Source: Acidimicrobiia bacterium (GTDB taxonomy: Bacteria > Actinomycetota > Acidimicrobiia > Spongiisociales > UBA5794). Taken from it: DNA of 34,242 nt. The position numbers and the translations under genes were made by a program. Location of the stretch: contig JALVQZ010000163.1 of NCBI GenBank assembly GCA_027036355.1, positions 1-34,242 on the forward strand, read 5' to 3'. The notes beneath the pieces are model-generated. The model was not told where the DNA came from, made no database searches, and saw only the letters and a list, made by a program, of their open reading frames with translations. Below, in pieces: positions 4,511-21,495 of the stretch. Position 1 is the stretch's first letter. Every line of letters begins with the position of its first letter.

Positions 4511-5551
4511 ATGGACGACACGGCACCGATCAGACCCGACGAGCGGTTCGACGAGCGCCGGGTCGCGACCTACCTCCACGAGCATCTCCCCGAGCTCGTC
4601 GGCGACGCCCCGATCGAGTTCGCCCAGTTCCCCGGTGGCGCCGCGAACCTCACGTACCTGGCGAAGGCCGGCGACACCGAGATCGTCCTCCGTCGGGCCC
4701 CGCACGGCGAGCTCGCCAAGGGCGGCCATGACATGGAACGCGAGTACCGGGTCCTCTCGCGCCTGTGGAGACGGTTCCCGAAGGCGCCACGGGCGTACCA
4801 CTACTGCCCCGACGCCGACGTCATGGGCAAGCCCTTCTTCGTGATGGAGCGTCGTCACGGATACGTGATCAGGGAACGCTGGCCGGACGAGTTCGGCGAC
4901 TCGTCGCAGCTCCGGCGCAAGGTCGCCGGTGAACTGGTGGAGACCCTCGCAGAGCTGCATTCCGTCGACCCGGTCGACGTCGATCTCGAGACGCTCGGCC
5001 GTCCCGAAGGGTTCGTCGGCCGTCAGGTGCGCGGATGGCTGGGACGGTGGGAGGCCGCCAAGACCCGCGACGTTCCCGCGATGACCCGCGCCGCCGCCCT
5101 GTTGGAGTCCGATCTTCCCGAACCGCAGGCGACCGTCATCCTCCACAACGACTTCAAGCTCGACAACACCATGTTCTCGGGGAGCGGGGACCTGGTGGCG
5201 GTCTTCGATTGGGACATGGCCACCCGCGGGGATCCCCTCGTCGACGTCGGCACCCTGCTGGCGTACTGGGCGGACCCACAGGCCCCCACCTATCCGATCT
5301 TCGGTGAGCGCGCCGTCGCCCTCGCCCCGTACATGGACCGCGACGAGGTGAAGACGTTGTATGCGGACGCCACCGGGTTCGATCTGTCGAGCATCCGCTA
5401 CTACGAGGGGCTCGCCTACTACCGCATCGCGGTCATCATCGAGCAGATCTACGCCCGTTACGTCCGCGGGCAGACCGCCGACGAACGGTTCGCTCGGTTC
5501 GAGCCGCTGGCGCCGATCCTCGCGGAAGCGGCCCTCGCCGTGCTGTCGTGA
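4511..5551 (+). CDS. APH-family phosphotransferase (ACAD10/11 kinase-domain type)
   Basis: A 346-residue protein kinase-like (aminoglycoside phosphotransferase superfamily) enzyme. It has a glycine-rich opening FPGGAANLTY (about residues 39-48), the VLRRAP strand with an Arg where many relatives have the ATP-binding residue, the catalytic loop LHNDFKLDN (Asp in HND) and the metal-binding VFDWDMAT followed by GDPLVDVG. This order and wording match the kinase domain of ACAD10/ACAD11 and their bacterial homologues rather than drug-resistance enzymes. ACAD10/11 are known to act on 4-hydroxyacyl-CoAs, using phosphorylation before elimination. An acyl-CoA dehydrogenase and a hydroxyacyl-CoA dehydrogenase occur 4 kb upstream but in a separate unit, so the pathway link is inference. 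Start fixed by the -10 box 7 nt upstream. Confidence 0.8.
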   Translation: MDDTAPIRPDERFDERRVATYLHEHLPELVGDAPIEFAQFPGGAANLTYLAKAGDTEIVLRRAPHGELAKGGHDMEREYRVLSRLWRRFPKAPRAYHYCPDADVMGKPFFVMERRHGYVIRERWPDEFGDSSQLRRKVAGELVETLAELHSVDPVDVDLETLGRPEGFVGRQVRGWLGRWEAAKTRDVPAMTRAAALLESDLPEPQATVILHNDFKLDNTMFSGSGDLVAVFDWDMATRGDPLVDVGTLLAYWADPQAPTYPIFGERAVALAPYMDRDEVKTLYADATGFDLSSIRYYEGLAYYRIAVIIEQIYARYVRGQTADERFARFEPLAPILAEAALAVLS

Positions 5552-5554
5552 CGG

Positions 5555-5583
5555 TTGCGCCGCACACCGGCACCGGGTACATT
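5555..5583 (+). promoter_or_regulatory. Promoter of the aro leader/attenuator
   Basis: TTGCGC (5555-5560), 17-nt spacing, TACATT (5578-5583). The start point would fall about 6-7 nt later, on the ATG of the leader peptide at 5590. This is one of the best -35/-10 pairs in the window. Confidence 0.65.
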
Positions 5584-5589
5584 GCCCCC

Positions 5590-5649
5590 ATGACCTGCCG
5601 GTTCCCGTACGCCTATCTCTTTACCGGGCCACCACCCGGGTCGAGGTGA
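5590..5649 (+). CDS. Phe/Tyr-rich leader peptide of aro attenuator
   Basis: A 19-codon frame beginning 6 nt after the -10 box, so probably translated from a leaderless transcript. It contains the run FPYAYLF at residues 5-11: four aromatic residues in seven, with no Trp. Two of these codons are TAT (5614-5616) and TTT (5620-5622), which are unusual in this GC-rich region, where neighbouring genes use TAC and TTC. The stop is TGA 5647-5649. A 12-bp terminator hairpin and a competing upstream segment follow, and the next gene encodes a DAHP-synthase-like/chorismate mutase fusion. Together these match ribosome-mediated attenuation sensing charged tRNA-Phe/tRNA-Tyr. An aromatic leader upstream of a DAHP synthase gene is, to my recollection, described in Corynebacterium glutamicum. 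Confidence 0.75.
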   Translation: MTCRFPYAYLFTGPPPGSR

Positions 5650-5695
5650 CGCGCAGGGAACCAACCGCAGACACCACACCACCGAAAGGACCCGG
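5624..5695 (+). promoter_or_regulatory. Attenuator: alternative 1:2 and 2:3 pairings
   Basis: Segment 2, CCGGGTC (5636-5642), lies over the last leader codons and is exactly complementary to GACCCGG (5689-5695), the upstream arm of the terminator. It can also pair within the leader: CCGGG (5624-5628) with CCCGG (5635-5639). A ribosome stalled at the aromatic codons (to 5622) would cover segment 1 and free segment 2 to pair with 5689-5695, preventing termination. A ribosome reaching the stop at 5649 would cover segment 2 and allow the terminator. The structures are read by eye, not computed. Confidence 0.65.
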
Positions 5696-5717
5696 AGCCA
5701 CCGCCCCGGGTCCTTTC
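5684..5717 (+). terminator. Attenuator terminator hairpin
   Basis: A perfect 12-bp stem: 5684-5695 pairs with 5706-5717 around a 10-nt loop. The lower stem is GAAAGG/CCTTTC and the upper stem is GC-rich. The tail after the hairpin (ACGTTCC) is poor in T, as in many actinobacterial terminators. It lies between the leader peptide and the aro gene, 42 nt before the ATG at 5760. Confidence 0.7.
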
Positions 5718-5759
5718 ACGTTCCCGGGCCGGTCCGAACCACCAACGAGGAGCCCGAAC

Positions 5760-6851
5760 ATGCCCAACGACCGCCCAGTAGAACCGACCCTGAAGAGCCA
5801 TCGCCGGCCCGACGTGGAGACCACCGTCGTGACCGTGGGGGCGGTGCGGTTCGGTGACGGTTCCTACCCGGTCATCGCCGGTCCGACCGCCGTCGAATCC
5901 GAGGCGCAGATGGCCGCCGTCGCCGAAGCCGTCGCCGATGCGGGCGCCGCGGTCCTGCGAGCCGGCACCTTCCTCGGCTCGTCGTCACCGTACGGGTTCA
6001 AGGGGCTCGGCGAGGAGGCGTTGTGGATCCTCGAGCACGCAGGCCGGAGGGCCGGGCTCCCCACCGCAACCGAGGTCGTCGAACCCGGGCTGGTGGATGT
6101 CGTCGCCGAGCACGCCGATATCCTCGAGATCGGCGCCGCCCAGATGCAGGACTTCGCCCTCCTTCGGGCGGTGGGTGAGGCCGGGAAGCCGGTCATCCTC
6201 CATCGGGGACCGTCGGCCACCGTCGACGAATGGCTCATGGCCGCCGAGTACATCCTCGCCGCGGACAACGACGCGTTGATCCTCTGTGAACGGGGGAGCC
6301 GCGGCTTCGATCCCCGCACCACCGACACCGTCGAGATCTCGGCCGTGCCGGTCGTGCAGCGCCTGTCGCACCTGCCGGTCATCGTGGACCCGGCGCCCGG
6401 GTCGGGTGCGGCGACGATCATGCCGCCGCTGGCGCTGGCGGTACGGGCCGTCGGCGCCGACGGCCTCGTGGTCGGGGTCCACCCCGACCCGCGCAACGCC
6501 CGGCTCGGCAACGGCAACCAACTGGGCCTCGCGGACTTCGCGGCGCTCATGGAGGGTCTCGGCATCCCGGCGTTGCGGGACGAGATCGATCGGCTCGATC
6601 GGGAGCTCCTCAAGATCGTCGCGGCTCGTCTGCGTCATGCCACCGACATCGGCCGGATCAAGGCCCAACGCAACATCGCCTTGCGATCCCCGGACCGGGA
6701 GGCGGAACTCCTCGACGAGGTCCGTGCGGACGCCGCGGCCCTGTCGGTGGACCCGGAGTTCGCCGTCCGTCTCATGGAGATGATCCTCGAGCACTCTCGA
6801 GCCGAACAACGTCGCGCCGTCGCCGCCATGGAGGAGGACGGGGCGGCATGA
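5760..6851 (+). CDS. DAHP-synthase-like / chorismate mutase fusion, degenerate synthase site
   Basis: A 363-residue fusion. Residues about 24-265 have the DAHP synthase (AroA-beta/KDO8P-like) barrel, with recognisable landmarks: IAGPTAVE, SPYGFKGLG, CERG (176-179), SAVPVV, SHLPVIVDP. Residues about 270-357 are an AroQ chorismate mutase. Compared from memory with Thermotoga, Bacillus and E. coli enzymes, the metal ligands are replaced: Cys by T43, His by P213, Glu by G239, Asp by N251. Also KPRTS reads LGSSS (72-76), IGAR reads IGAA (124-127), and KRG reads HRG (148-150). The mutase keeps R273, R290, K301, R313, E314, S346 and Q350 (E. coli R11, R28, K39, R51, E52, S84, Q88). DAHP synthesis is therefore doubtful; chorismate-to-prephenate activity is likely. 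The AGGAG at 5748-5752 supports ATG 5760. The gene follows the Phe/Tyr attenuator and overlaps tag by 4 nt. Confidence 0.88.
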   Translation: MPNDRPVEPTLKSHRRPDVETTVVTVGAVRFGDGSYPVIAGPTAVESEAQMAAVAEAVADAGAAVLRAGTFLGSSSPYGFKGLGEEALWILEHAGRRAGLPTATEVVEPGLVDVVAEHADILEIGAAQMQDFALLRAVGEAGKPVILHRGPSATVDEWLMAAEYILAADNDALILCERGSRGFDPRTTDTVEISAVPVVQRLSHLPVIVDPAPGSGAATIMPPLALAVRAVGADGLVVGVHPDPRNARLGNGNQLGLADFAALMEGLGIPALRDEIDRLDRELLKIVAARLRHATDIGRIKAQRNIALRSPDREAELLDEVRADAAALSVDPEFAVRLMEMILEHSRAEQRRAVAAMEEDGAA

Positions 6852-7450
6852 TCGCCACCGCCGGACCCGACGGTCGTCACCGGTGCCCATGGGGCAACGA
6901 TCCGGACATCTATCGCCGATACCACGACGACGAGTGGGGCCGGCCGGTGGACGACGACGTCGCCCTGTTCGAGAAACTCGTCCTCGAGGGGTTCCAGGCC
7001 GGTCTGAGCTGGTTGACGATCCTCAACAAGCGGGACGCTTTCCGTGAGGCCTTCGCCGGCTTCGACCCGGACCGGGTGGCCGCCTTCGACGAATCGGACG
7101 TGGAGCGGCTGGTCGGCGACGCCGGCATCGTTCGTCATCGAGGCAAGATCCAGGCGGCGATCGCCAACGCGGCGCGGGCCGTCGAGCTGCGGGACGAGTT
7201 CGGGTCGCTCGGGGCGTTCTTCTGGTCCTACGAGCCGGTCAGAACCGGCCCGTCGACGGCGGCGACAAGCCCCGAATCCATCGCCATGTCGAAGGAACTC
7301 AAGCGCCGCGGCTTCCGGTTCGTCGGACCCACCACCGCCTACGCCTTCATGCAGGCGATGGGCATCGTCAACGACCATCTCGACGGATGCTGGGTGCGCG
7401 AGGACGTCGAGCGCTTGCGCGCCACGTTCGTGCGCCCGACGGGTCCCTAG
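6848..7450 (+). CDS. tag: DNA-3-methyladenine glycosylase I
   Basis: A 200-residue helix-hairpin-helix glycosylase that removes 3-methyladenine from alkylated DNA. The zinc-binding residues of Tag are all present: Cys13 (in RCPWG), His26 (in YHDDEWG), His177 and Cys181 (in NDHLDGCW). The segment FEKLVLEGFQAGLSW carries the family's catalytic-pocket Glu (E47), followed by LTILNKRDAFREAF. Length matches the E. coli enzyme (187 residues) with a small C-terminal addition. The start overlaps the preceding stop (ATGA), so the gene is co-transcribed with the aro fusion, though no functional link is evident. Its TAG overlaps the convergent gpsA stop by 3 nt. Confidence 0.93.
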   Translation: MIATAGPDGRHRCPWGNDPDIYRRYHDDEWGRPVDDDVALFEKLVLEGFQAGLSWLTILNKRDAFREAFAGFDPDRVAAFDESDVERLVGDAGIVRHRGKIQAAIANAARAVELRDEFGSLGAFFWSYEPVRTGPSTAATSPESIAMSKELKRRGFRFVGPTTAYAFMQAMGIVNDHLDGCWVREDVERLRATFVRPTGP

Positions 7451-21339: not shown

Positions 21340-21431
21340 GGAGGTGTCCGGACGCCTGGTGGGTCCCCCGGTCTTCAAAACCGGTGAGGGTGCGAGAGTG
21401 CCCTGGCGGGTTCGATTCCCGTCCACCTCCG
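21340..21431 (+). tRNA. selC: Selenocysteine tRNA, anticodon UCA
   Basis: A 92-nt tRNA with anticodon TCA at 21375-21377 in a 7-nt loop closed by CCGGT/ACCGG (21368-21372 with 21380-21384). The acceptor stem pairs GGAGGTG (21340-21346) with CACCTCC (21424-21430), discriminator G, no encoded CCA. The T arm can form 6 bp (21405-21410 with 21418-21423) around TTCGATT, so acceptor plus T stem total 13 bp, as in bacterial tRNA-Sec. A long variable arm (21387-21404) forms 7 pairs, two of them G-U, capped by GAGA. These features distinguish it from a UGA-suppressor tRNA-Ser or tRNA-Trp. No selA, selB or selD is in the window. Confidence 0.93.
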
Positions 21432-21495
21432 CGATCTCGACGCTCGATGCGCGTGCCGAGCCTCCCGGCCGCAGGGCCCGTGGCCTGCCGTGCGG

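Follow-up and report, generated by a model that had tools for sequence, protein, structure and literature searches.

In the trp- and phe-type attenuators of enterobacteria, the leader RNA comprises a 1:2 protector, a 2:3 antiterminator and a 3:4 terminator, with the control codons located just before segment 1; we know of no covarying fifth segment in these systems. In actinobacteria, a comparative survey (Seliverstov 2005; PMC1262725) predicted classical attenuators of trp, trpS and leuS genes, including some located before tRNA synthetase genes, and reported no conserved structures beyond the Trp, Cys and Leu pathways, other than the T-boxes of ileS. A leader encoding a Phe-Tyr-Phe run precedes aroF in Corynebacterium glutamicum (aroR; PMC4046766; Neshat 2014, as cited in PMC11995493 and PMC8079986), in line with the aromatic leader before DAHP synthase in Corynebacterium that the preliminary description of the locus analyzed here had mentioned. 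Leaderless attenuator peptides have been described in Streptomyces lividans (PMC8079986). To judge from titles cited in other papers, they have likewise been described in mycobacteria (Canestrari 2020, listed in PMC13236596) and for the ilvBNC genes of C. glutamicum (Morbach 2000, listed in PMC4046766). For attenuators of Acidimicrobiia, we found no literature, an absence that is weak evidence.

Here, we analyze a Phe/Tyr leader from a metagenome-assembled genome of the Acidimicrobiia, located in a stretch of 34,242 nucleotides (hereafter, the window), upstream of a gene encoding a DAHP synthase-chorismate mutase fusion. The comparative data point to a type of mechanism that is already known, with the element predicted to work like a classical attenuator, most of the testable defining features of which it displays; as an example of this type, it is new and has unusually good support. 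It follows the same 1:2, 2:3 and 3:4 plan, including the control codons, as the enterobacterial trp/phe-type attenuators, although the enterobacterial leaders use a Shine-Dalgarno site, whereas the window leader is predicted to be leaderless. A predicted leaderless start, alternative hairpins and gene-matched codons are shared with the S. lividans leaders (trpL1, leuL, ilvL and others; PMC8079986), although Table 4 of that paper includes no Phe/Tyr leader, and repeated complementary triples are shared with the attenuators of the 2005 survey. The C. glutamicum aroF leader is similar in encoding a short Phe/Tyr peptide and, also in an actinobacterium, in preceding a gene of the common aromatic pathway; however, it controls an active DAHP synthase, whereas the gene behind the window leader encodes a chorismate mutase joined to an inactive synthase, and the window leader, unlike its C. 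glutamicum counterpart, includes a fifth segment. No sequence kinship between the two emerged when a phylum sample was searched with model R2. Of the two novelties proposed in the preliminary description, the leaderless leader peptide turned out to be known, in Streptomyces, Corynebacterium and Mycobacterium, whereas control of a chorismate mutase that is attached to a dead synthase half is new, as are the lineage, the relatives upstream of pheS and AroFGH genes, and segment 5. The features of the locus are the following.

5555-5583, + strand: promoter, with the -35 box TTGCGC (5555-5560), a 17-nt spacer and the -10 box TACATT (5578-5583)
5590-5649, + strand: leader ORF MTCRFPYAYLFTGPPPGSR, predicted leaderless; Phe/Tyr-rich ORF conserved in 62 relatives
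5602 (Phe, TTC), 5608 (Tyr, TAC), 5614 (Tyr, TAT) and 5620 (Phe, TTT, the control codon): aromatic codons of the leader
5614-5653, + strand: 1:2 (protector) hairpin, with the core 5624-5628 / 5635-5639
5614-5619 / 5643-5648: outer helix of 1:2, over the last aromatic codons; also 5610-5612 / 5651-5653
5636-5642, + strand: segment 2, 5' side of the antiterminator, CCGGGTC; partner 5689-5695
5684-5695, + strand: segment 3, 5' arm of the terminator, GAAAGGACCCGG
5706-5717, + strand: segment 4, 3' arm of the terminator, CCGGGTCCTTTC, without a U-run after it in the window species
5723-5732, + strand: segment 5, CCCGGGCCGG; partner, once segment 4 is free, 5701-5710, which spans parts of the loop and 3' arm of the terminator (fold of 5701-5762)
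5747-5752, + strand: Shine-Dalgarno sequence GAGGAG of the fusion gene
5760-6851, + strand: fusion gene, encoding a degenerate type I-beta DAHP synthase (residues ~20-265) and an intact AroQ-type chorismate mutase (~270-355)

The promoter, followed by 6 nt and the ATG at 5590, the 19-codon frame with its Phe/Tyr run and subsequent stop, and the exact complementarity between CCGGGTC and GACCCGG (5689-5695) were all found as originally described. The 12-bp inverted repeat proposed as the terminator is present as well, forming a hairpin (5684-5718) with a predicted folding energy of -26.8 kcal/mol (z -7.1 relative to shuffled sequences), but lacks a U-run in the window species: its Us are contained within the 3' arm (CCUUUC-ACGUU), whereas a U-run follows the hairpin in most relatives, so that the efficiency of termination in the window species is uncertain. 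The leader as a whole is also more stable than its shuffles (z -4.6). The initial inventory of helices, correct for the terminator and the antiterminator, had overlooked the 1:2 hairpin and segment 5.

The window locus has a near-identical counterpart in JALSQW010000032. Across the order, the fusion is encoded in 86 of the 138 genomes, and 62 of the 66 fusion loci for which upstream DNA was extracted, representing 7 families, carry a leader of the same design; the four loci that lack it all belong to a single genus (f1 g19), which retains the fusion directly after the upstream gene. No leader was found upstream of the free chorismate mutase genes in genomes without the fusion. After exclusion of two degenerate leaders of family f2 (L068 and L069) and a few divergent ones, 56 leaders were aligned (alignment A1). 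To avoid circularity, a covariance model was built exclusively from 28 leaders belonging to other families; this out-of-family model matches window positions 5590-5758 with E = 5.5e-12 when the window is searched and 4.8e-10 when the genome is searched. A class-wide model search of 296 genomes yielded 70 matches in 59 genomes, of which 54 immediately precede the fusion gene, 10 precede pheS and 3 precede an AroFGH DAHP synthase gene, with the remaining 3, all weak (G179, G113 and G115), judged probably spurious. The window genome itself contains no second copy of the leader, only one weak, unrelated match, and in the phylum sample model R2 recovered the window genus only, with no relative outside the class; a single match in a large genome consists of a tRNA gene and a terminator and was dismissed as chance. 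One leader frame (L064, in G115) has ACG in place of the ATG or GTG of its relatives and might be broken or possess an unusual start. The comparison with related genomes suggested in the preliminary description shows both the aromatic codons and the covarying stems to be kept across families. Judging from this comparison, the RNA switch is real and is retained across a whole order of Acidimicrobiia.

The amino acid composition of the leaders differs between the downstream genes. The fusion leaders contain 174 Phe, 109 Tyr and 9 Trp codons (with no Trp in the window), whereas the pheS (phenylalanine-tRNA ligase alpha) leaders, found in ten genomes (L177-L181, L183-L185, L187 and L189), contain 24 Phe and 0 Tyr codons (P 2e-5 versus the fusion leaders), and several genomes carry leaders of both kinds. 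Thus, the codons follow the function of the downstream gene. In family f2, a Phe/Tyr leader precedes a type I-alpha (AroFGH) DAHP synthase gene (L182, L186 and L188). In the genus with this leader, the fusion's own leader is degenerate, as if control had moved from the fusion to the AroFGH gene. The window genome has the fusion leader only, with none before pheS or the canonical DAHP synthase gene.

Codon choice is biased at the control site. Among the 56 aligned leaders, the codon directly preceding segment 1 (ACCGGG) is UUU in 47, UUC in 5, UAC in 2 and CUC in 2, compared with 47 UUU and 389 UUC codons in the fusion genes at the same loci (Fisher P 3e-33). Ten window genes, which together with the fusion genes served as the codon-usage background, contain 112 Phe codons, all of them UUC, bearing out the initial impression that TTT is locally unusual. 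We then simulated stalling by cutting the RNA directly after segment 3 and placing a ribosome on the control codon. Under these conditions, 2:3 forms in 56 of the 56 leaders, with a mean of 9.7 bp, whereas in the naked RNA it forms in 15 of the 56, with a mean of 2.6 bp; for the window leader, the values are 7.1 bp stalled versus 0 naked. The fold of 5632-5700 is exactly the predicted 5636-5642 / 5689-5695 helix, whereas that of 5590-5700 is 1:2 instead. Folding with and without ribosome-occupied segments, a check proposed at the outset, accordingly frees the antiterminator upon stalling.

Covariation and folding both point to mutually exclusive antiterminator and terminator helices. In A1, the terminator columns are paired in 99% of the cells, including 37 double-change cells. 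Because RNAalifold recovers only the two local hairpins from the full alignment, each of the competing helices was tested singly, by comparing the own segment pair of each leader with segments exchanged between species. This segment-swap test yielded z values of -8.9 for 3:4, -10.1 for 2:3, -11.2 for 4:5, and -3.6 and -7.7 for the core and outer helix of 1:2, respectively, which are not probabilities because related leaders are not independent. The control pairings, which share this relatedness without removing it, showed no covariation (2:5, -0.4; 1:5, +0.7; 3:5, +2.6) and, together with column slides, are a better guide than z itself. Column counts agree with the swap test for 2:3, 1:2 and 4:5; the 4:5 columns are 89% paired, with 41 double-change cells, and a slide by one column drops the score sharply. 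A GCGCG motif around the leader stop (A1 columns 66-72) is conserved even outside the ORF, and its partner in the outer 1:2 helix is the GCGUA of the Ala-Tyr codons.

The promoter is conserved at a nearly constant distance from the leader start. A TAnnnT element ends 6-11 nt before the start in 61 of the 62 leaders, and 6-8 nt before it in 39, against 1.2 expected in shuffles; a -35 element starting with TTG is present at a spacing of 16-19 nt in 51 of 61. This spacing implies a 5' UTR of 0-4 nt, which leaves no room for a Shine-Dalgarno site, and we infer from it that the leader peptide is initiated in a leaderless manner.

In family f1, to which the window fusion belongs, the synthase motifs are changed, with GPC replaced by GP(T/V/I/A), KPRTS by non-matching letters, DPSH by DPAP, EVHP by xVHP and SDG by GNG. 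The counterparts of these residues are visible in alignments to solved synthases, and their roles as ligands of metal and substrate in type I-beta DAHP synthase are well established. The loss of catalytic residues bears out the earlier impression that the synthase half is dead and implies that the switch here controls a chorismate mutase. In addition to the fusion, the window genome encodes a canonical DAHP synthase in which GPC, KPRTS and DPSH are present. Family f7 (L036, L038 and L039) has the same leader and retains all synthase catalytic residues, and the active site is intermediate in other families, in a pattern of stepwise loss. The chorismate mutase active-site residues are invariant. 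The synthase half shows no decay, being under constraint as strong as that on the mutase half (dN/dS 0.03-0.11), and the barrel is preserved in its predicted structure (mean pLDDT 83, with low values at 76-81 and 181-190, the substrate loops). We read the synthase half as a putative conserved pseudoenzyme domain attached to a predicted-active mutase. The f1 synthase domain (window 5760-6560) also displays new conserved motifs, HRGPSAT, GSRGFDPRT and GNG. Downstream, a 3-methyladenine DNA glycosylase gene (window 6848-7450) overlaps the fusion stop codon by 4 nt, so that the attenuated transcript is probably common to both; the same neighbor is found in several relatives. A selenocysteine tRNA gene is located at window positions 21340-21432.

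From the elements, their covariation and their codon choice, as established by comparison, we infer the transcription start, leaderless initiation, termination and amino acid response of what is very probably a ribosome-mediated transcription attenuator sensing charged tRNA-Phe (and tRNA-Tyr). Transcription would start at or within a few nucleotides of the leader AUG, with ribosomes loading without a Shine-Dalgarno sequence. When Phe is scarce, the ribosome would wait at the UUU at 5620 and cover segment 1, so that 5636-5642 would pair with 5689-5695, no terminator would form and the polymerase would read into the fusion gene. When Phe and Tyr are ample, the ribosome would reach the UGA at 5647 and cover segment 2, allowing the 3:4 terminator to form; without translation, 1:2 and 3:4 would both form, resulting in low expression. 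At equilibrium, 3:4 beats 2:3, which means that switching must be under kinetic control, as it is in other attenuators. The fusion effectively acts as a chorismate mutase, the enzyme that commits chorismate to the Phe and Tyr branch, so the sensed amino acids fit the branch.

A conserved 5' RNA with a terminator and alternative folds might also be a translation-independent switch, such as a T-box or a riboswitch, in which the ORF is incidental. We consider this very improbable: the conserved Phe/Tyr frame, the fixed distance from the -10 box to the start and the Phe-only version before pheS would be unexpected, the preference for UUU in this one frame at the control site would be unexplained, and Rfam searches at both gathering and relaxed thresholds returned no relevant family, T-box included. 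Even less credence can be given to the idea that the hairpin simply terminates the kinase-like gene upstream and that the ORF arose by chance. That gene ends at 5551, 3 nt before the -35 box, and the hairpin is strong, but the ORF, segments 1 and 2, segment 5 and the spacing are kept even where the upstream sequence differs, and the out-of-family model spans the whole leader, so that this explanation is already contradicted by the comparative data. Aromatic attenuation, as originally proposed, is instead supported by the cross-family conservation, helix covariation, control-site codon bias and the Phe-only pheS version.

Because segment 5 is located past the site of termination, the 4:5 pairing cannot act on termination. 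One possible, albeit tentative, reading is that attenuation is supplemented by a translational tier, in which 4:5 would keep the Shine-Dalgarno sequence open after read-through, whereas 3:4 would leave segment 5 to close it. Consistent with this possibility, the covariation of 4:5 peaks sharply in the expected register, the modeled Shine-Dalgarno accessibility is lower than in shuffles (0.32 versus 0.41, P 4e-4), and freeing segment 4 lifts it from 0.33 to 0.45 (27 leaders up, 5 down, P 3e-5), although this effect is partly trivial because segment 5 is given another partner. The prediction fails, however, in the window (0.26 with segment 4 free versus 0.29), accessibility in L003 changes in the wrong direction, and the pairing of segment 5 with the Shine-Dalgarno sequence covaries weakly (z -2.4). 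A broader and rather doubtful proposal is that of a five-segment coupled switch (2:3 and 4:5 upon stalling, 3:4 in the replete state), in which a stall would both let the polymerase through and expose the ribosome-binding site and the replete state would let segment 5 close the site, within an order-wide aromatic regulon that would also take in the pheS and AroFGH leaders and would have outlived its enzyme, now a conserved pseudoenzyme.

These observations extend the known range of amino acid attenuation by an entire uncultured order of Acidimicrobiia, with Phe/Tyr leaders, of which nothing was reported in the 2005 actinobacterial survey (PMC1262725). They also offer a natural comparison, in which one RNA design carries Phe and Tyr before chorismate mutase or DAHP synthase and Phe alone before pheS. 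The covarying segment past the terminator is a directly testable oddity and, if the translational tier is true, one leader would set both transcription and translation. Finally, with the same leader preceding intact fusions in one family and dead-synthase fusions in another, the regulatory RNA appears to outlive the activity of the adjacent enzyme.
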